From positions 1 through 22,728 of the IMG/VR virus record IMGVR_UViG_3300042881_006724: 22,728 nucleotides of DNA; one strand, given 5' to 3'. Below are positions 1,146 to 22,728 of the stretch, piece after piece. The stretch's first letter is position 1; each line of letters starts with the position of its first letter. Made by a program: the position numbers and the translations under genes. The DNA comes from a virus. The notes under the pieces are model-generated. The model saw nothing but the letters and a program-made list of their open reading frames with translations. It had not been told where the DNA came from and made no database searches.

Positions 1146-2189
1146 ATGAACGTTGGCATCTACACGCATTACGCACAATGCGACCAAACATATCTTACTG
1201 TGCGGCTGGCTGAGTATTTGCGCAGTTGCGGCGTAGATTTTTCTATCTATGCCGATAACCAGCCTGCAAAGTTAAAAATTCCGTACGACAATCTTGTCGT
1301 GCACCGCTCGCGGCAAAAGTATAGCGAGTGGCTGAAGGGGCGCAGCGCTGTCGTTTGGACGCATATTCCCAAGATAGAGCAAATTAACATTGCTAAGCGC
1401 CGCGGCATCTTAACCGTTTTAGCCCCTATGTGGCAGGAACTGAGTCCGCCTTTTCGCAAAGCCGCCAGACAAGCCGACCATGTAATTGCGCTATGCACAG
1501 AAAATCGCGAACTATTTCACGGCGTATACAAGTTTCGAAACACCACGCTAATTCCCTTTGACGCTGGTTTGCCGCCGACGAAAAAAGACGCAGCAGTTAA
1601 CGCGCGCAAGATAAAACTGTTTTTGCCGTGGTATGACCGAAATGCTCGTTGCGCTCAAAGTTATTTTTTGGATCGTTTGGCATATTTGTTAACTCACATG
1701 CCAGAAGCGCATTTGACGGTTTGCATTTCGTCTAGTAAATTTTCTCCGGCAATTGCTAAGTTTTTTCAACGGCTTGGCCAAAAGACGGATGGCCGCGTTG
1801 TTGTTGCCCGCAATGTGCCTATTCAAAAAAGACCCAGTCTATATGCCGCGCACGATTTAACCATCAACCCCGCTGAGTGCGACAACTATGGTTTATGTAA
1901 TTTAACGTCTATTTGCTGCGGCACTCCGGTGCTAACGTTTGCTGTAGCGCCGCAAACAGATTTTGTATATCCAGAAGTAAACGGCGTGCTTGTAAAAACA
2001 AAAGTCGATTACGATGAAAACGGCGCACCTCACGCCAACCCTGATTACGACAGTTTTGCTGATGCCCTGCAAACCCTTATCGCGGAGCCTAGGCATATTG
2101 ACCTGATGAACAAAAAAATCAACTACAATTTGAACTCTAGACGCAAGGCCTTTGAATTAGGTTGGCAGTCAGTCTTGCGGCTTGTTTGA
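1146..2189 (+). CDS. GT-B fold glycosyltransferase (GT4-like), 347 aa
   Basis: The N-terminus MNVGIYTHYAQCDQTYLTVR looks like the first Rossmann strand and helix of a GT-B glycosyltransferase. The C-terminal half carries the family's donor-binding region: NPAECDNYGL at residues 241-250, ICCGTPVLTF at 257-266, and PEVNGVLV at 276-283. These match the usual E-G-F-G-L...A-C-G-T-P-V and N-G-L-L-V motifs, but the two glutamates of the EX7E motif are replaced by Asp246 and Thr254 in the natural alignment. The enzyme would transfer a sugar from a nucleotide donor; the acceptor is unknown and could be a virion protein, phage DNA or a host surface molecule. ATG at 1146 lies two bases after the portal stop, so the genes are probably co-transcribed. 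Fold confidence is good; specificity cannot be told. Confidence 0.72.
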   Translation: MNVGIYTHYAQCDQTYLTVRLAEYLRSCGVDFSIYADNQPAKLKIPYDNLVVHRSRQKYSEWLKGRSAVVWTHIPKIEQINIAKRRGILTVLAPMWQELSPPFRKAARQADHVIALCTENRELFHGVYKFRNTTLIPFDAGLPPTKKDAAVNARKIKLFLPWYDRNARCAQSYFLDRLAYLLTHMPEAHLTVCISSSKFSPAIAKFFQRLGQKTDGRVVVARNVPIQKRPSLYAAHDLTINPAECDNYGLCNLTSICCGTPVLTFAVAPQTDFVYPEVNGVLVKTKVDYDENGAPHANPDYDSFADALQTLIAEPRHIDLMNKKINYNLNSRRKAFELGWQSVLRLV

Positions 2190-3272: not shown

Positions 3273-3959
3273 GTGTTTGTTTGCTTCGAAGGAATCGACG
3301 GCGCCGGTAAAAGCACTCAAGCCCGCCTGCTTCAGCAGCGCCTTGCCGCGGAAGGTTACAAGGTTGAACTCGTGGCAGACCCCGGGACAACCAAAATAGG
3401 CACAGCAATTCGTCAAATTCTTTTGGACAACGACGGCCCAATTACGCCAGCGGCGCAGATGTTGTTGTTCTCTGCCGCCCGGGCCGAGTTATCTGCGCAC
3501 ATCAAACAACAGATAAAGAAAAAGACGATCATCGTCTGCGACCGCTGGTTTCTCTCGACGCTTGTGTATCAGGGCGTCATGAACGATCTGCCAATAGACG
3601 TGCTTATTGATATCTTTGACATGTCGGACTGTATCTTCCCTGACATCTGCTTTTTGCTTGACCTTGATCCGCGCGATGCCAAAAAGCGGACGGGCAAACC
3701 CCGCGATCGTTATGAGCGCAAATGCGCAGCAGACCGCCGAACCATGCGGGCGGCGTACTTAGAATTCGTACGCGACGCTGACTACGCCGAACGCACGGCA
3801 ATTGTGCCGGCTGAAGAAAAGCCGGATACCGTACACAACACGATTTACGACGTCGTCAAATCGGAGTTGCGGGAGCGTAACCTGAAACCTATTGCTAGAA
3901 GGGACTCTGCAAATGGTCGTAGTAAACGCGCAGCAAGAGCAGTTAAAGCAAGAACGTGA
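3273..3959 (+). CDS. tmk: Thymidylate kinase (dTMP kinase), 228 aa
   Basis: This enzyme phosphorylates dTMP to dTDP with ATP. The P-loop GIDGAGKST is at residues 7-15 after the FVCFEG strand, the DR(W/Y/F) motif CDRWFLST is at 89-96, and LLDLDP at 128-133 gives the strand before the lid, with RYERK at 146-150. The usual (R)EPGGT nucleoside-binding motif is changed to ADPGTTKIG at 35-43, so Arg is missing and Glu is Asp. The start is GTG 3273 with AAGGA about seven bases upstream; it places the first strand just before the P-loop as in the family. The protein is about 20 residues longer than typical bacterial Tmk. The extra tail is very basic (PIARRDSANGRSKRAARAVK) and is encoded largely in the 47-base overlap with the next gene. 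The only other likely reading is a broader dNMP kinase. Confidence 0.88.
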   Translation: MFVCFEGIDGAGKSTQARLLQQRLAAEGYKVELVADPGTTKIGTAIRQILLDNDGPITPAAQMLLFSAARAELSAHIKQQIKKKTIIVCDRWFLSTLVYQGVMNDLPIDVLIDIFDMSDCIFPDICFLLDLDPRDAKKRTGKPRDRYERKCAADRRTMRAAYLEFVRDADYAERTAIVPAEEKPDTVHNTIYDVVKSELRERNLKPIARRDSANGRSKRAARAVKART

Positions 3960-4990: not shown

Positions 4991-5335
4991 GTGAAAAATC
5001 TGCTGCTCTGCCTGTTTCTGCTCGCAGCCGCTGCTCGCGCAGAAGCGGCAGAGTTGCTCATTTTTACGGCAGAGTGGTGCGGCCCGTGTCAATTGCTTAA
5101 AGCCGACCACGCCGCGGACCCTACGCTTTTTGATAACTATACGTGGGGCTATGTCGATTTTGACGCGGAAAAAGAACTTGTGCAAATGTACGGTGTGCGT
5201 ACGGTCCCTACATTTCTTATACTGGAGCGCAATACAGTCGTCCGGCAGCAGGTCGGCTATCAGGGGCCAGAAAAGTTGAAAAACTGGCTCAAGGGTACGC
5301 AACCCAGACGTTTTAGGCGTAGCCATGTCGAATAA
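4991..5335 (+). CDS. Thioredoxin-fold protein with N-terminal signal peptide, 114 aa
   Basis: Residues 3-15 form a short hydrophobic core after Lys2, followed by A-R-A-E-A-A, a plausible signal peptidase I site near residues 17-20. The active site WCGPC is at residues 29-33 ([14 protein letters not shown]), and the cis-proline motif is in [11 protein letters not shown]. Strands such as [14 protein letters not shown] match the thioredoxin core, with a short C-terminal helix ([11 protein letters not shown]). Cytoplasmic phage thioredoxins act with ribonucleotide reductase; this one is probably exported, so thiol-disulphide exchange in the periplasm or on virion proteins is more likely. The start is GTG 4991 with GAGG at 4981-4984. 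The 3' end overlaps the next fibre gene by 11 bases. Transmembrane anchoring instead of cleavage is possible. Confidence 0.85.
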
Positions 5336-6443
5336 AAAAATCTCAGAACTGCCTATAAAGACAGAACCACACCCGGCCGATTTTGTGCCGATTGTCGACA
5401 CTGGCGTTACGCCGATAACGACAAAACGAACAACCATACAAAATATTGTTGGAATTCTTCGCGGTCTCCCCGGCGGCGTGGCCAGTCTTGACGGCGATGG
5501 AAAAATTCCCACGATTCAATTGCCCGCTGGCATCGGCGGAGGCGCCTCTGGCCCGACAGGCGCCACAGGAGCGATTGGCGCTACTGGCGTTAGAGGACCC
5601 ACAGGCACACGAGGGGTCACGGGCGCAACTGGCGCCGGCGCTACTGGTGTTACTGGCCCTGTCGGCGCTACAGGCGCTGTTGGCCCCAGTGGGCCTTTGG
5701 GACCAACCGGGGCTACAGGGGTTTCCGGACTAGCCGGCGCAACAGGCGTTGCTGGTCCGAGCGGCGCGCTGGGACCAACTGGGGCTACAGGCGTTTCTGG
5801 ACCAGTTGGCGCAACAGGTGCTTCTGGCCTCGCGGGAACTTCTTGGGCGGAACTAACAAGTTCAAGTTTTGTAGGCAATTCCTTCACGGCGACGCCCGGC
5901 GGACAATACTACTTAGCCCCCAACGACGCGGCGTCGTTGATTGACAGGACAATAGTCGACCCGTCGTCGCCGGCATTGGGTGACTACTATCTCGTTTGGA
6001 ATCAGGGCGAACCAACTAACACGCTCGTCGGCGGCACCGCGGTTCGCTCAGGACAAATTGTCGCGCGAATTTTTTCCGGGCCTCTCAGCGGCTGGACAAA
6101 CGAAGTATTGGTCGATACGAACAGCGTCGGCAGCGATTACGAATTTTCTGTTTCGTATAGCGGCTCGTCTCCAAGCGCCGTGACCGGTTTGCCACCCGGC
6201 TGGTCGGCTAGCATATCGTCGAACGACGTCACGATTACACACACCGTCGGTAAGCAGGTAAAAGACGTTACGTACTGGGGCTACACCGCGGCAACAGGTT
6301 TGTGGCACGCGAGATACCCAACAGCCTCTAGCGAATTAACACTGACCGAAAGCACAAAAACTTCGGCATTTAAAATTCGCATTTCTAACACCGTCGTGGC
6401 ATGCGACACAGGTGGCACAGCGCGTATTGTTTGCTTCTTCTAA
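5325..6443 (+). CDS. Collagen-like tail fibre protein, 372 aa
   Basis: There are three parts. Residues 1-75 are a phage-fibre N-terminal module ([30 protein letters not shown], then [18 protein letters not shown]), which probably docks the fibre on the virion. Residues 76-173 are about 32 Gly-X-Y triplets, rich in GAT, GPT and GVS, with one two-residue break (G-A before GAT). Residues 174-372 form a beta-rich C-terminal domain with many aromatic residues and two late cysteines ([15 protein letters not shown]), likely the trimerisation or receptor-binding tip. The N-terminal module closely parallels the fibre starting at 16066. ATG 5325 lies within the end of the thioredoxin gene. This is a virion adhesion protein with high confidence at class level; its receptor is unknown. 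Confidence 0.82.
5550..5843 (+). repeat. Collagen-like Gly-X-Y repeat tract (about 32 triplets)
   Basis: The translated frame shows continuous Gly at every third residue, with Thr most often in the third position (GAT, GPT). One register slip of two residues (GAT-GA-GAT) falls about a third of the way in. Synonymous codons vary from triplet to triplet, so the DNA repeat is much less perfect than the protein repeat. Confidence 0.9.
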
Positions 6444-6460: not shown

Positions 6461-8425
6461 ATGTCATTCACGCCAACGAAGGTTCTTTTAGTAACTCTAA
6501 GCAACACGACTCCAGTTGCCTTTTGGGCGGCGGGAGGTCCGTGGGAAGGAGCGGCGTATCGTTGGTCGGCCACTCTCAATGTTTTGCCGCAAGCCCACGG
6601 CGATCCCAGCACGCCCACCCCAAATTTTTATGACGGCAATGATATCAAAGCCGGCGACTACATCGTTACGGGAGGCCGCGGCCGCATACTCAAAGTAGTT
6701 TCAATCACGACAGCCGATGACACTGAAGTCGCGTGCGTGCTTGAAGACGAAAATCAACAAAACGCATTTCTAAACGAAAACCAAGACGGCGACGGTTTGA
6801 TATCAGAGTCTGAAGGTTTGCTTTTTGAAGTAGTCAACGGTTGGCCAATCCTTCATCCGTTACCAGACTCTTTATCTGGTTATTTGCCGCCATATTTCTC
6901 GGCTGACATCATCGCGCGGTTTATGTACACGCGCGTAGACCCGTCGGCTGGCGCCACAGGCGCTACCGGCGCCGCCGGAGCAACAGGCGTTCAAGGTGAT
7001 CCCGGCGGACCAACTGGCCCTACTGGCGCTACAGGCGTTTCTGGTCCGGCTGGCCCAACTGGCGCGTCTGGCGTCAACGGCACCACAGGTCCTACTGGCG
7101 CCACGGGCGTTTCTGGCCCTGCCGGCCCAACTGGCGCGTCTGGTGTCGCTGGCGGAGTCGGGGTAACTGGCGCTACAGGCGTCTCCGGACCAGAAGGCCC
7201 TACAGGTCCGTCTGGCGTTAACGGCCAAACGGGGCCGACGGGCGCTACCGGCGTTATCGGCGCTACGGGGGCAACTGGCCCACGCGGCGTCGCCATGCGC
7301 ATCATGGGCGAACTTATAGAGTGGCCTCCAAGTCCCTCGCCGGACTTCGGCGATTTGTGGGTCGCCGTTGATCCGATCCCCGCTGATGTCCCTGCTGATT
7401 TAAGCGTCAATCCGTCTGACGGTATTGTATGGGCAGAGTCTGGCGCCGGCGGTGATTGGCTGAACATAGGTCCTTTTCAAGGACCTTCAGGCCCTTCCGG
7501 GCCTATAGGCGCCACAGGCGCTACAGGCGTTCGCGGTATACAGGGCGTTCGTGGCGCAACCGGCCCGCAGGGCGATCCGGCTACAAATTACGTTTTGAGC
7601 GTAAATGCACAAACAGGCGCAGTCCTGCTCGATTCCGCCGATATCGCCATTGACCAAAACATTACCGTCATGGCGGTTAGCCAAGGAGCGTACGCCGACG
7701 GCAATGTAATTTCTGCTGGTACAACGCTGACGACCATACTTAAAAATATGTTGCAAGTTCGCGTGCCGGCGACATACACGCAGCCCGCGTTGACTATTTC
7801 TACGTCTTCCGCGCTGGCTTACGAATACGGCTCTAACATATCTGTTACGACAAGTTTGAATTGGACTAAGAACGACGCGGGGAATGCTGCGGCGTTTAGA
7901 TACAAAAAAGACGGCACGGTAGTTCAGACTATTAGCGACACAACACCGACCTCTTTTTCGCAAAGTTTTACGCTCAACGCCGCGGCCACAATCACAGGCG
8001 AAGCCGACTACGAAATTGGCCCGCAAAAATACGACAACATGGGAGACGCGTCCGGTTCGCCAATTGTCGCGGGAACGAAAACAACGGCAAATAGCGTTGT
8101 ATTTACGCCGCGGCATAAGCGGTACTGGGGCTTGTCAGCAAACGCTACGCTTACAGACGCTGAAATTAGGGCTTTAAACTCTGAACTGGCGACAACCCGC
8201 GTGCAGACCCGTAATGACTTTAACCCGGTCAATCAGTACATTTATATCGCGTATCCGGCGTCGTTTGGCCTAGCAACAATCAAATTCAACGGGTATATTG
8301 CGACCAGTTCGTGGCCGCTTACAACTAGAGACTTCACAAACGCGCAAGGCTACGCAGAGTCGTATCATATTTATAGAACGCAATACACACAAAACTCGCC
8401 TGACATTGACATAGAGGTGTTGTGA
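6461..8425 (+). CDS. Collagen-like fibre with EF-hand-like loop, 654 aa
   Basis: Residues 1-163 are a beta-rich N-terminal domain. It contains an EF-hand-type loop at 107-118 ([12 protein letters not shown]), then [19 protein letters not shown]. Residues 164-278 are about 38 Gly-X-Y triplets with one extra Gly. Residues 279-340 are an inserted small domain ([31 protein letters not shown]), a pattern seen in phage fibres. Residues 341-373 are 11 more triplets. Residues 374-654 form the C-terminal domain, with Ig-like strands and a distal [20 protein letters not shown] ... YIAYPASFG segment seen at the ends of other phage fibre proteins. The N-terminus differs from the other two collagen-like fibres, suggesting another attachment point. 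ATG 6461 follows the previous stop by 17 bases with only a weak ribosome-binding site. Confidence 0.8.
6950..7294 (+). repeat. Collagen-like Gly-X-Y tract 1 of the 654-aa fibre
   Basis: About 38 Gly-X-Y triplets ([15 protein letters not shown]), with a single inserted glycine after the sixth triplet (GDP-G-GPT). A five-triplet pattern of the type [18 protein letters not shown] recurs, indicating growth by duplication of short blocks. Confidence 0.9.
7481..7579 (+). repeat. Collagen-like Gly-X-Y tract 2 of the 654-aa fibre
   Basis: Eleven uninterrupted Gly-X-Y triplets ([33 protein letters not shown]) after a 62-residue non-collagen insert. It is more charged than tract 1, with two Arg and one Asp. 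Confidence 0.88.
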
Positions 8426-16065: not shown

Positions 16066-18078
<2,013 letters not shown>

Positions 18079-18084
18079 GGTCAT

Positions 18085-18963
18085 ATGCGCGGTAAATTAG
18101 GCATTAGAACGTCGCGTGTCATAAAAGACGTTCGCAATACGTATTCTCGCGCTTACGTTCTTGTACGCACAACTAACACAGTGTTGCGCAATACGTATTC
18201 GCGCGCTTACGTGCTGATTGCGCAAAAAGCAACAGCACAAAAACTGACTTACGCGCGACCGAATGTTTTGATAGTTCAAAAAGAAACTACTCAAAAACTG
18301 ACTTACGCACGATCTAACGTTTTGATAGCCCAGCAAGCGGCAGAGAGTATTCAAAAGTTAACGTATGCGCGCGCTAGCGTTCTCGTGCCGCAACAGCCGT
18401 TTACGCAGCAATTGACTTATTTCCGTAGTAGAATTTTGTTATCAGAAAAACCGGCGACAACCGAACGCGTAACAGTGTTTGGTGTTGACGCGCTCGCTGC
18501 TGCACCGGCCGCCGAAACAACTCGTGTGACAAACTTCGGCATTGATATGCTGGTGTACGAACCAGATAGGCCAAAAATAGAAATGTCGGCATTTGGGGTG
18601 GACGCGGTATCTTTTGAAACTCCAGCCCCGACTTTGCGCACAACGATATTTGGCGCGGACATATTAGCGTACGAGCCAGATACACCAAAAGTCGAAGTAT
18701 CGGCGTTTGGTGTGGATTCGTTATCTTATCAACTACCAGTAGATGAAATTCGTGTATCCGAGTTTGATGTCAGTACGTTGATTTTTGAACCGCCATTGCC
18801 GGGCATTACGTTGTCAGCCTTAAACGTGGATTCGTTAACGTATCAGTTGCCGGCAGACGATTTGCGCGTAACGGCATTTGCGGTAAATTCACTTGCAATT
18901 GCCATCCCGACAACAGTTTCACGCGTGTCGGCTCTTGCTGTCGACGTGCTTGTCATAGACTAA
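18085..18963 (+). CDS. Tandem 18-20-residue repeat protein, 292 aa, function unknown
   Basis: After a 17-residue basic leader the whole protein is 14 full repeats of 18-20 residues and one final 12-residue partial repeat. The first six are basic and Tyr-containing, for example LTYARPNVLIVQKETTQK (core TY-x-R-x-x-V-L-I). The later nine are acidic or neutral with a Phe-Gly core, for example VTNFGIDMLVYEPDRPKIE (core (S/T)-x-F-G-V-D-x-L-x-Y). The two classes align without gaps, so they are one family that diverged. The alternating hydrophobic pattern suggests one or two beta-strands per unit, as in a beta-solenoid or elongated beta-rod. There is no signal peptide or cysteine. GAGG at 18077-18080 supports ATG 18085. 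Its position between fibre genes makes a virion role likely; I do not know an established family name. Confidence 0.78.
   Translation: MRGKLGIRTSRVIKDVRNTYSRAYVLVRTTNTVLRNTYSRAYVLIAQKATAQKLTYARPNVLIVQKETTQKLTYARSNVLIAQQAAESIQKLTYARASVLVPQQPFTQQLTYFRSRILLSEKPATTERVTVFGVDALAAAPAAETTRVTNFGIDMLVYEPDRPKIEMSAFGVDAVSFETPAPTLRTTIFGADILAYEPDTPKVEVSAFGVDSLSYQLPVDEIRVSEFDVSTLIFEPPLPGITLSALNVDSLTYQLPADDLRVTAFAVNSLAIAIPTTVSRVSALAVDVLVID
18136..18960 (+). repeat. Fifteen tandem protein repeats of 18-20 codons
   Basis: Unit lengths in order are 18, 18, 18, 20, 18, then nine units of 19, then a 12-residue partial. The first two units are most alike at DNA level (both contain AATACGTATTC and CGCGCTTACGT), suggesting the most recent duplication. 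The switch from the TYxR class to the FGVD class occurs at about 18463, with LTYFRSRILL as an intermediate unit. Confidence 0.88.
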
Positions 18964-19008: not shown

Positions 19009-20208
19009 ATGGCTTTGATTTTTTTCGAGGGTTTTAACCGCACATTTGCTACCACAGACCCGGCCGCAGGTTATGCCGGCAAATGGGAGTGGGCTACTGT
19101 CGAGAGCCTTACGCCAACGTTTGGGTACTCGTCTACGGTGCGCAACGGCTCTGGCTCGCTTTACTTGCCGACAAATCAAGGCGCCGGTAATAGTTTGCAG
19201 TGTTACGCAGACTTAACAATAAGTGCGCAATCAAATAAAACACTCTATCTCGGTTTTGCTGTTTACACGCTGCACACCGGTTACGCCTCCGCGACAACTG
19301 GATCGCCGTATGCCGCCACGTTGCTTCGGTTCTATAACGCGCTTGGCACCGAACAATTTAGGCTTGATCTGGACCGCACACCTACGGCTTCCGGCACTAT
19401 CGGACTTGCGTTTAAAAACTCTAGCGGCGTTATTCAAGGTTCGCCGCTTATTCTTAATGGCGCAACAGACAACGGAAGTTACTCGCAGGCGCGGCAGTAC
19501 GGATATTTAAATAACTACACAAGTTGGGCGTACGTTGAACTTAAAATCACTTTGAATTCTTCTGCGTCGGGGTCTGTAGAGGCGCGAGTAGACGGATTAG
19601 CGTTACAGACCAGTTCAAATTCCGCCACCGTGACACTACCGACAATTTCAAATATCTATAAGATTCGGTTTTGCGCCAATGAAACCGGCGACACACACGT
19701 TGACGACCTTTATCTGTTAGACAGTTCTGGCAGCAGCCTCAATACGTGGTTAGGGCCAACAACAAAGGTCTTTAGTCCGGCGCTTTACACAACTAATACA
19801 GACGTCACGACTACGACCGATCAAGAATGGGATACGGTTGGTTCTTTGTCTTTGGATTCTCACACCCCTGACGGCGACTATATCACTACCAAACTGCCGG
19901 ACAAACTACAGTTCTACGTGCTTAACAGTTCTGATGGTTTGTTTTCGATTCCGGCTGTTGAAACTGTAGCGGCGGTGCAGATGCGATCTATTGCGCGCGA
20001 AACGAGTTTGCCAGCCGCATACAAACAAGTGTTCAAAACAAATACTGCCGGAACTGTGACAAACGTGTCGAGCGAGTTGCAGACAGAAGCCTACTATCAA
20101 AGTGCCGCCACAATTCTTACAACAAATCCGGTTACAAGCGCGGCGTGGACAGTGGCTGATTTAACGACAGCCCATTTTGGCGTAAAATCGGTTACCCGTA
20201 CAGCATAG
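19009..20208 (+). CDS. Beta-sandwich-like virion protein, paralogue A, 399 aa
   Basis: The first 250 residues have the pattern of a concanavalin/LamG-like jelly roll: MALIFFEGFNR, WEWATVES, KTLYLGFAVYTL, WAYVELKITLNSSASGSVEA, and HVDDLYLLDSSGSSLNTWLG. The DDLYLLDxxG...WLGP ending is common in phage particle proteins. The C-terminal 150 residues form a second domain (EWDTVGSLSLDSHTPDGDYI, VAAVQMRSIARETSLPAAYK, AAWTVADLTTAHFGVKS). The protein shares all these landmarks with the next gene, so the two arose by duplication. GAGGTG upstream supports ATG 19009. It is likely a carbohydrate-binding or decorative virion component; direct evidence of binding is lacking. Confidence 0.74.
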   Translation: MALIFFEGFNRTFATTDPAAGYAGKWEWATVESLTPTFGYSSTVRNGSGSLYLPTNQGAGNSLQCYADLTISAQSNKTLYLGFAVYTLHTGYASATTGSPYAATLLRFYNALGTEQFRLDLDRTPTASGTIGLAFKNSSGVIQGSPLILNGATDNGSYSQARQYGYLNNYTSWAYVELKITLNSSASGSVEARVDGLALQTSSNSATVTLPTISNIYKIRFCANETGDTHVDDLYLLDSSGSSLNTWLGPTTKVFSPALYTTNTDVTTTTDQEWDTVGSLSLDSHTPDGDYITTKLPDKLQFYVLNSSDGLFSIPAVETVAAVQMRSIARETSLPAAYKQVFKTNTAGTVTNVSSELQTEAYYQSAATILTTNPVTSAAWTVADLTTAHFGVKSVTRTA

Positions 20209-20215
20209 GTGAATT

Positions 20216-21433
20216 ATGGCGCTTATTTTTTGTGAAGGTTTTGAAGAGTCCCGAGTAATTAACGGCAACACCGTATCGGACCTGCCGGATATCTGGGAAT
20301 TTGTTTCCGGTAGCGGCTATAGTTTCGTCGCAAACAACGGCCGCTCGGGTTACGGGTCTGCAAGATTAAACACGGATACAACTGAGATTACAAAACTCAA
20401 ATTCAAACTAGACACGCTTGGCACACAAAGCGGCAAAACGTTGTATGTTGGTTTTGCTGTGTACCACATGCAGTCTACGCCCGGCACGCAGGGTACAACA
20501 CTTCCGCACCGTTTGGTGACTTGCTTTAACACCGCCGGTACTGAAGTGCTGCAAGTTAGCGTGAAAAAAGAAGCGGCCAGTGACATTTCCATGCGGCTTG
20601 TTATCGGGCAGGCAGGCACGGTGTTTGCGGAATACGCGCTCACTGATCTCGCGTTTACCTCGACGACCGATGGCGCGAACCCGTACATTTATTTTTCATC
20701 GTGGGTGTATCTTGAGTTTAAAATTGATCTCGTGGAGAACGAGTTTACACTGCGTGTCAATGGCATCCCCAAAGTCGTCGTAGCGACATCCAGCGCAGAA
20801 TCGACATACACCACCGCTATAAGCGAAATTGCTGCCATTCAGTTTCACGGAAATACTAATACTGCCACCAACAACGACACGTACATTGACGATTTCTACT
20901 TGATCGACAACACGGGCGACTCGTCTAATGCTTGGCTTGGTCCGTGTCGGGTAATGACGCCCGCCTTCACGTACGGGAATTTTCCGCTTGGTGAAGTATG
21001 GGATTCCGCGAAGCAGTCTTCGTGGCCAAGCGACTTAGAATCAAATAACGGTGATTCGTCTTTTGTTTCGTCGGGCACTACAGGGAAAAAACAACTTATT
21101 GGTTTGATGACCACAAATTTGAATCTAGGCGCCAACACTATAGCCTTAAGCGATGACGAATACATTGCTGCCGTACAATTGAACACAGTATTACGCAAAA
21201 CGAATCTAGACGCGGCTGTAAAACCTATCTATAAATCTGCCACAGATACGTATCACGATCTCGGCCCCAGCATCGCGATTGCCGGCCAGCCTTTTGAAAA
21301 TTACAGGTCGCAAATCTTCGTTGCTCACAAGAACCCCGCGACAAATACGAATTGGAATTTGACAGAAGTTGCTAGCGCGTCACCTACTGCGGCTAACATT
21401 GGATTTGGCTTACAGATTGTCGATCCGGCGTAA
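20216..21433 (+). CDS. Beta-sandwich-like virion protein, paralogue B, 405 aa
   Basis: This tandem paralogue of the preceding gene has the same landmarks in the same order: MALIFCEGFEE, KTLYVGFAVYHM, WVYLEFKIDLVENEFTLRVN, YIDDFYLIDNTGDSSNAWLG, and a C-terminal domain with EYIAAVQLNTVLRKTNLDAA. Between these conserved strands the sequence is strongly diverged, so the copies may bind different ligands or occupy different positions. AGGTGA (20207-20212) overlaps the previous stop and precedes ATG 20216 by three bases, favouring coupled translation. There are few cysteines and no signal peptide. The class assignment follows paralogue A. Confidence 0.74.
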   Translation: MALIFCEGFEESRVINGNTVSDLPDIWEFVSGSGYSFVANNGRSGYGSARLNTDTTEITKLKFKLDTLGTQSGKTLYVGFAVYHMQSTPGTQGTTLPHRLVTCFNTAGTEVLQVSVKKEAASDISMRLVIGQAGTVFAEYALTDLAFTSTTDGANPYIYFSSWVYLEFKIDLVENEFTLRVNGIPKVVVATSSAESTYTTAISEIAAIQFHGNTNTATNNDTYIDDFYLIDNTGDSSNAWLGPCRVMTPAFTYGNFPLGEVWDSAKQSSWPSDLESNNGDSSFVSSGTTGKKQLIGLMTTNLNLGANTIALSDDEYIAAVQLNTVLRKTNLDAAVKPIYKSATDTYHDLGPSIAIAGQPFENYRSQIFVAHKNPATNTNWNLTEVASASPTAANIGFGLQIVDPA

Positions 21434-21447
21434 TTTATACTAGAGTC

Positions 21448-22116
21448 ATGGCTAAACTAACGCTACTCAATACGTGCTGCGGTTTAGCGTTACGCCGCGA
21501 TGGCTGCGACGGCTCGCTGGTGCTCGCCAAAGAGTCCAATGATGATCCGTGCTGCTGCTGCCCGGACATTCCGCAAACTTGCTGCGTAAGAATTCAAAAG
21601 TCAAACGGGGAAGGAAGTAAAGAAGCGCCAGCAACGATTTCGGGTACTTTTTACGTCATGCGCTGTAGCCCGAGCCTGCCATCCGGTAGTCCTGCGTGCG
21701 CAGACGGGCCTACTAGTTGCGCCGGAGACCATACAAAGGCTGCTGTCAACGGCAATTGTAAAACAGGTTTTCCGCAGTGTATCGTAGACGCGTACAAAGT
21801 ATACGGCAAAGTCAAAGCAGGCTCGGGTTTTGACGACTTCGGTGAGGTAGAGGGAATTACGTTTGATAATCACATACCTTGCGGTCCGGGGTTAGCGTCA
21901 AAAACGACAACCACAACGACAGACTCGGAAGAATTTGAATTGACGTTCGAGGCGCTCGAACCAAACCCCTGCGAAGAGGGCGGTTCTGCTATGTATTGCA
22001 TACCGATTAAATGGTCGGCTACTAGTTCGAATTGCGGCCCGCCACAAGGAATCAACGCACAAGTTTGTATTCGTTTTGAGAGTAAAGACAGTTCAAACGA
22101 TCCTATTCCTATTTAA
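21448..22116 (+). CDS. Cysteine-rich protein, 222 aa, 19 Cys, function unknown
   Basis: I do not recognise a family. Nineteen cysteines are spread over the protein: 10, 11, 20, 35-38 (a CCCC run), 45, 46, 73, 84, 91, 104, 111, 145, 175, 184, 196 and 207. The CC...C...CCCC...CC cluster in the first 46 residues (TCCGLALRRDGCDG, DPCCCCPDIPQTCC) could bind metal ions or form a disulphide knot. The rest is beta-rich (ATISGTFYVM, AYKVYGKVKAG, EEFELTFEALE, CIPIKWSA, QVCIRFESK) and contains a run of six Thr before residue 159. There is no signal peptide. TATACT at 21436-21441 lies so close to ATG 21448 that it is probably not a useful promoter. It is probably a virion component, given its neighbours. 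Confidence 0.7.
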   Translation: MAKLTLLNTCCGLALRRDGCDGSLVLAKESNDDPCCCCPDIPQTCCVRIQKSNGEGSKEAPATISGTFYVMRCSPSLPSGSPACADGPTSCAGDHTKAAVNGNCKTGFPQCIVDAYKVYGKVKAGSGFDDFGEVEGITFDNHIPCGPGLASKTTTTTTDSEEFELTFEALEPNPCEEGGSAMYCIPIKWSATSSNCGPPQGINAQVCIRFESKDSSNDPIPI

Positions 22117-22137: not shown

Positions 22138-22728
22138 ATGGCTAAACTCTATTTCCGTCACGGCACTGTCGGGAGCGCGAAGACTCTCAATCTACTGGCT
22201 ACAGCGCACAACTATCGCCAGCAGGGCAAAGAAGTTTTGCTCGTCAAACCTGAACTCGATACGCGGTTTGGCCAAAATATCATTAAGACCCGCGCCGGCT
22301 TAGAAATGAAAGCCGACGTTTTGGCTCCGCCTGCTGGGCTGATTCAGTTCCCGGCTCTTGACGACATAGCCTGCGTCCTCGTGGACGAAGCGCAATTCTT
22401 GTTTCCTGACGCCATAGACCAATTGCACCGTATTGCGCACGCTGCCGTGGCCCCAGAAAGCCCCGGCGGCATTCCAGTTATTTGCTACGGCCTGCGTACG
22501 GATTTCCGTACTCGTGCATTCCCGGCGGCGCAGCGCTTATTTGAGTTGGCTGACAGTATCGAAGAAATCAAAACTATCTGCCATTACTGCTTGCGGAAAG
22601 CCGTCTTCAACCTTAAACTCGTCGACGGCAAACCAACTAAATTTGGGCCGTCTGTTGAATTAGGCTGCGAAGAGAAATACTTACCGTCTTGCGCCGACTG
22701 TTATGAATTCCAACACCGAAACAGTTGA
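22138..22728 (+). CDS. tdk: Thymidine kinase, 196 aa
   Basis: The enzyme phosphorylates thymidine to dTMP with ATP. The P-loop variant GTVGSAKT is at residues 9-16 (after KLYFRH), the catalytic DEAQF at 83-87, and the conserved YGLRTDFR at 117-124. Two CxxC pairs, C148-C151 and C185-C188, form the structural zinc site, separated by the thymidine-binding segment (VELGCEEKYLP). Length is typical of TK1-like enzymes. The start ATG 22138 puts the first strand directly before the P-loop; AAAGG upstream is farther away than ideal (about 16 bases). The stop is the last codon of the window, so the gene is complete. With the dTMP kinase at 3273 it would supply dTDP from thymidine. Confidence 0.9.
   Translation: MAKLYFRHGTVGSAKTLNLLATAHNYRQQGKEVLLVKPELDTRFGQNIIKTRAGLEMKADVLAPPAGLIQFPALDDIACVLVDEAQFLFPDAIDQLHRIAHAAVAPESPGGIPVICYGLRTDFRTRAFPAAQRLFELADSIEEIKTICHYCLRKAVFNLKLVDGKPTKFGPSVELGCEEKYLPSCADCYEFQHRNS

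Follow-up and report, generated by a model that had tools for sequence, protein, structure and literature searches.

What does a protein built almost wholly of short tandem repeats contribute to a phage when its gene lies between a gene for a collagen-like fibre and two genes for ConA-like proteins? This question is raised by IMGVR_UViG_3300042881_006724, a 22.7-kb viral contig that forms the window analysed here in its full length of 22,728 nucleotides. The first gene is portal-like, since tblastn matched it weakly to a protein annotated as a portal, and a search with this gene retrieved 80 kin loci, several of them on contigs of 193-205 kb. The source of the window is a large-genome bacteriophage. 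The families of the repeat and its partner are already known from databases, where they stand without function (phrog_13560 and phrog_2448); the searchable literature, subscription papers (including the YSD1 virion study) aside, described neither the two-block, 15-unit form set out below nor a connection of repeat number with adhesin paralogs.

Architecture of the repeat protein

The repeat gene (18085..18963, plus strand, ATG start) encodes 292 aa and was delimited by its ORF, self-alignment and a unit HMM; an earlier note on this DNA had given the span 18136-18960, which lies in the same frame and starts at residue 18. Self-alignment compared with shuffled residues revealed periods of 38 (z 18.2) and 19 (z 11.5), along with 57 and 76. 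The first 122 residues showed period 18 (z 11.3), and the residues after them showed periods 38 (z 15.3) and 19 (z 14.0). A one-unit HMM found 15 domains and an unsupervised motif search 15 units, which, together with a block model, confirmed the previously described 15 tandem units of 18-20 residues in two classes. The units measure 18, 18, 18, 20, 18 and 19 residues, then 19 each with a final unit of 13, and their cores align without gaps across the shift from 18 to 19, just as had been read from the sequence.

Mixture clustering into unit classes merged classes with a common register, so the block model was used instead. A model of two contiguous blocks, divided between units 6 and 7, outscored the one-block model by 11.8 nats. 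The non-repeat leader (residues 1-16; 18085..18132, plus strand) carries the motif MRGKLGIR, which is conserved as MRG[KH][LI]G[IF][RK] in the window protein and all four relatives found. It is followed on the same strand by a basic block (units 1-6, 18133..18465) with a TYAR/TYSR core and 18-20 residues per unit, and by an acidic block (units 7-15, 18466..18960) with an FGVDxL core and 19 residues per unit, the last having 13. Both blocks were defined by the block model and by charge, since K+R/D+E counts were 16/3 in the basic block and 9/24 in the acidic block, in line with the reported contrast between basic early units and acidic or neutral later ones. The profiles of the two blocks are nevertheless alike in register (permutation p 0.006).

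The AlphaFold2 monomer of the repeat protein, a low-confidence model (pLDDT 52, pTM 0.35), is all-beta and its strands follow the repeats, so the repeat periodicity anticipated for a monomer prediction is present in the model, and an elongated beta-rod is suggested by it. Foldseek searches with this low-confidence model returned no significant match; as regards a beta-solenoid with one coil per repeat, the top PDB matches were mostly left-handed beta-helix enzymes with E of at least 0.04 and a probability of ~0.1. The protein as a query matched nothing in Pfam, NCBIfam, PHROGs, PDB, 50,697 phage records and viral contigs, with no PHROG match below E 0.3 and no matching solved structure in the PDB, such as a triple beta-spiral fibre shaft with its trimeric, intertwined 15-20-residue repeats. 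Unlike its upstream neighbour, it has no match to Pfam Collagen with its Gly-x-y triplets. No match to a characterised non-structural family was found in Pfam, PHROG, NCBIfam and PDB. The proposal of a beta-structured protein that belongs to a phage structural module and to no named family is supported by the low-confidence all-beta model, by synteny and by mass spectrometry of virions for a related protein. Promoter and terminator scans flanking the repeat gene gave no signal above chance.

Neighbouring genes and partner proteins

Directly upstream, on the plus strand like the other genes of the cassette, lies a gene for a collagen-like fibre protein (16066..18078; Pfam Collagen E 1.4e-70). 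All five phages with the repeat protein have the C-terminal tip domain of this fibre, which was absent from every non-carrier seen; in unrelated phages a different tail-fibre tip domain is often found at that place, including Chi gp31 and phiCbK gp101. The structural region of the window contains three collagen-like, G-x-T-rich proteins (5325-6443, 6461-8425 and 16066-18078), and kin phages have several each.

Downstream follow two paralogous ConA-like 'DGFD' proteins (19009..20208 and 20216..21433, plus strand), which matched phrog_2448 with E 5.5e-15 and 6.2e-19. A full-length alignment was obtained for fourteen members of phrog_2448, drawn from the window, its kin, scanned contigs and phiCbK (gp103); the ConA-like neighbour as a direct query retrieved no relatives. 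The model of the 19009..20208 product has 162 residues at pLDDT 70-90, and with this partly confident model Foldseek found ConA-like jelly-rolls at E ~1e-5 and 8-17% identity, among them an L-type lectin, polysaccharide lyases and, in clostridial neurotoxins, the lectin-like half of the binding domain. The predicted likeness is at the level of the fold only and has no bearing on toxicity.

The cassette is followed by a gene for a Cys-rich protein (21448..22116, plus strand), which is present in kin too and found no family match in PHROG and Pfam searches. Enzyme-like genes are scattered among the structural genes of the window (1146-2189, 3273-3959, 4991-5335 and 22138-22728) and appear by sequence to be glycosyltransferase-like, dTMP-kinase-like, thioredoxin-like and thymidine-kinase-like.

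The repeat array in kin phages

The repeat protein was found in 4/40 kin records (G002, G008, G014 and G021), and a profile search of the kin returned the same four carriers with a further weak match in G072. The gene order fibre, repeat, ConA-like is common to the window and these four phages. Among 30 kin records sharing the portal, the same four were the only ones with ConA-like genes, a co-presence with a chance of 1 in 27,405 if the genes were independent; as neighbours they are inherited together, and their co-presence therefore shows a cassette and not an interaction.

The ortholog in G014 (329 residues, 37% identity to the window protein) has 7 + 10 = 17 units, with the same block order and charges (K+R/D+E) of 13/1 and then 9/20. 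The blocks and the charge split are thus maintained in G014, and the array changes by whole units. Between the window and G014 the repeat protein is 37% identical, and its neighbours 61% and 50%. The proteins of G008 (124 aa, 6 units) and G002 (110 aa, 5 units) contain a single class, with unit cores such as RLTQLAADVLLY, and in G021 the units lie within a 1406-residue protein, ahead of fibronectin-like segments.

The earlier note had pictured an array that grew by duplication and then split into two halves. The two classes stand, but simple drift of one array is probably not the whole story. It is the acidic class that recurs in the one-class relatives, and the basic class turns up in the lineage with the second ConA-like gene; this distribution points to a functional partition. 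The window clade of the ConA-like tree groups the paralogs of the window and G014 as two pairs, with the single-copy kin as a third group, so that the lineage with the second paralog is also the one with the second repeat class.

In close kin, unrelated proteins occupy the position of the cassette. Replacements in kin without the cassette (L096 5259-8366, L097 1974-5132 and L095 3286-3627) start with 'MSRGRVGGRFGARD', 'MPRGRVGEHIGNRD' or 'MLGRTGGRIGS', which resemble the leader MRGKLGIR and are perhaps a shared attachment motif, to judge by their sequence. Another kin phage (L074 12493-14796) encodes 'TYLAADVMATQNVTNIVD' repeats between poly-serine linkers (profile E 1.6e-6), possibly a further form of the repeat.

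A wider repeat family

The one-class units resemble RxTQxxVEVL, a repeat of other phages, and this lead was tested. The consensus query was found in phiCbK-like and Brevundimonas phages, and a DNA pattern of the repeat was found in nine viral contigs. A search with a canonical-unit HMM and a cut-off of E <= 10 missed the window ORF, and the family link was tested by column permutation of profiles after this miss. The acidic block matched the canonical units best at register 0 (p 0.003 over all shifts), the one-class kin matched at p < 0.001, and the basic block alone was borderline (p 0.058). The window protein has the family core, that is, tandem units of 17-20 residues with RxTxxxxx[DE]xL in register. 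Since the canonical-unit HMM misses it, profiles, intermediates and synteny are the basis of the relation, and the protein appears to be related to the RxTQxxVEVL (phrog_13560-like) family and not a proven member of it.

The likeness to phiCbK gp102 and phrog_13560 comprises tandem units of 17-19 residues in one register, a strand-like core ending in [DE]xL, and for gp102 a gene flanked by those of a tail protein and a phrog_2448 member, as in the window. Canonical phrog_13560-like proteins have 2-5 units in one block, whereas the window protein has 15 units in two. Long multi-class repeat proteins, as in the window, are encoded by Salmonella phage Chi (gp36) and other Casjensviridae (XAP3, Saba, AS-M1_NWU, JS26 and AchV4_0028), in which the repeat gene directly follows several ConA-like paralogs and a tail-fibre gene. 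These proteins differ in their units, which number 28-31 and are more diverged, and in the count of paralogs (three or four), and significant pairwise sequence similarity between them and the window protein was not found. A structure search with the weak repeat model ranked Saba 5th and JS26 24th, neither significantly. Chi gp36 (L136 7271-9400) is a 709-residue multi-class repeat protein annotated as hypothetical; its gene comes after gp31, the putative tail-fibre gene, and after those of four ConA-like paralogs (gp32-35), and the protein bears on the make-up of the Chi tail fibre.

Recurrence of the cassette in unrelated phages

Loci found by the repeat pattern in unrelated phages have an adjoining ConA-like gene (L120, L121 and L123-L126), and gp101-gp102-gp103 of phiCbK follow the order of the window cassette. 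The cassette also occurs in Brevundimonas phages, in Chi and other Casjensviridae, in Mesorhizobium phage Cp1R7A and in Tetraselmis virus S20. The phages that have it include siphophages, jumbo phages and N4-like podophages. In a forward check, phages were chosen solely via the ConA-like gene (DSS3P8, RcXuper, XM05, DS-1410Ws-06 and the Vibrio jumbo phage vB_pir03), and repeats were found beside it or in its cluster in 5/5, with the two units of XM05 barely above shuffled sequence and vB_pir03 matched by a repeat query as well. Repeats of the 'VSKxxxYAVL' type occur in six phage records, and all six also have a ConA-like gene of the query type. In Sphingomonas phage Kharn and BcepSauron, no clear repeat protein was found near the ConA-like gene. 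At one locus (L121 3208-5070, 5072-6127 and 6127-6393) the ConA-like gene lies between two repeat proteins of 4 and 5 units, and in vB_pir03 (L157 3155-5035) an array with ~5 block-wise unit types adjoins at least four ConA-like genes.

Repeat number and ConA-like paralogs

Across 32 repeat proteins, from phages that are not independent, arrays have more units where there are more ConA-like paralogs (rho 0.82). When the first 27 proteins were collapsed to 21 lineages, rho was 0.77 for units and 0.67 for blocks, values computed with uncorrected by-eye ConA-like counts for Vibrio phage VCPH and JS26. The HMM did not confirm these by-eye calls in VCPH or the fifth in JS26, and the final paralog test dropped VCPH and counted JS26 as four.

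A single block was found in all 17 cases with one paralog, and more than one block in 7 of the 15 cases with several (Fisher p 0.002), in a block test that has more power on longer arrays. The window and G014 have two blocks and two ConA-like paralogs, and their one-block kin have one. Leszy, Fanboy, Cp1R7A, Strzyga, Saba, AS-M1_NWU and vB_pir03 have one block despite several paralogs, and LR756511 has two ConA-like paralogs and one unit class. By eye, classes and paralogs agree in more phages (3/3 in AchV4; 5 against 4-6 in vB_pir03). A strict equality of class count and paralog count, suggested by eye, was not confirmed by the block model.

Proposed function

A docking strip is the favoured reading; this one idea would cover the cassette, the scaling and the blocks. 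The repeat protein would be an elongated beta-repeat component of the virion, belonging to the host-binding fibre apparatus, in which each unit of 18-19 residues may be a single strand-turn module and the array may offer a row of binding sites to the ConA-like (jelly-roll) adhesins of the next genes, a reading to which a probability of about 0.45 is assigned. The docking of one adhesin by one unit is proposed tentatively, at somewhat less than even odds, and the unit number would set how many adhesin copies are displayed. Specificity between blocks and paralogs, by which the basic block would hold one adhesin paralog and the acidic block the other, is doubtful, and so to a similar degree is a complete docking code with one block per ConA-like paralog, in which units and block composition would set the number of copies of each lectin. 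In tandem beta-zipper adhesins and cohesin-dockerin scaffolds, a repeated peptide strip recruits several folded partners; the comparison of beta-zippers and cellulosome scaffolds with the window protein is one of working principle only, and no sequence relation is claimed.

The all-beta prediction in step with the repeats, the whole-unit gains between the window and G014 and the adjoining collagen-like fibre gene would also suit a passive shaft, that is, a beta rod, perhaps trimeric, that spaces the ConA-like proteins from the fibre, with units setting its length and the charge change being a by-product of duplication. By itself such a shaft leaves unexplained both the rise of unit number with ConA-like paralogs and the restriction of multi-block arrays to phages with several paralogs, and the preservation of block order and charge split at 37% identity also speaks against it; this alternative is considered unlikely.

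Binding of the array itself to a host surface polymer, with the basic block contacting an acidic glycan and the ConA-like proteins acting as separate binders inherited in the same host-range cassette, is quite improbable. The strong charge segregation fits such a direct adhesin, as do the exchange of the cassette for unrelated proteins in close kin, in the manner of host-range modules, and the faster divergence of the repeat protein than of its neighbours, but it does not require the repeat and ConA-like genes to recur jointly in unrelated phages.

The docking reading places the repeat protein in the virion, and other phages bear on this point. Roseophage RPP1 gp80, gp81 and gp82 were detected in virions by mass spectrometry (PMC4193335); gp81 contains three to four 19-residue units, above shuffled sequence, and gp82 is ConA-like (HMM E 4e-15). 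Of the AchV4 proteins, ConA-like 0025 and 0026 were detected in virions; neither the repeat protein 0028 nor the third ConA-like protein, 0027, was (PMC7996906). Both gp102 and gp103 are missing from a list of eight virion proteins of phiCbK (PMC3556154). The repeat protein probably has a tail-fibre or virion role, attached to the fibre. The absence of AchV4 0028 from virions with two ConA-like proteins and of phiCbK gp102 from virions would agree with a non-virion or transient chaperone that gathers the ConA-like proteins in fibre assembly, but RPP1 gp81 is present in purified virions, and some of the repeats are found joined to larger proteins of fibre-like or Gly-rich lectin-like kind; such a helper is very improbable.

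Implications for phage tail fibres

The flagellum-using phages Chi and phiCbK are well studied, yet the composition of their tail fibres is unsettled (PMC3556154, PMC10399903), and both possess a cassette of the same kind as the window. If the repeats mount ConA-like proteins, many genes annotated as 'hypothetical' would gain a testable role, and adhesin copy number would be readable from sequence. Should docking fail, the linkage is nonetheless the sign of a reusable tail-fibre cassette, the components of which lack functional annotation.
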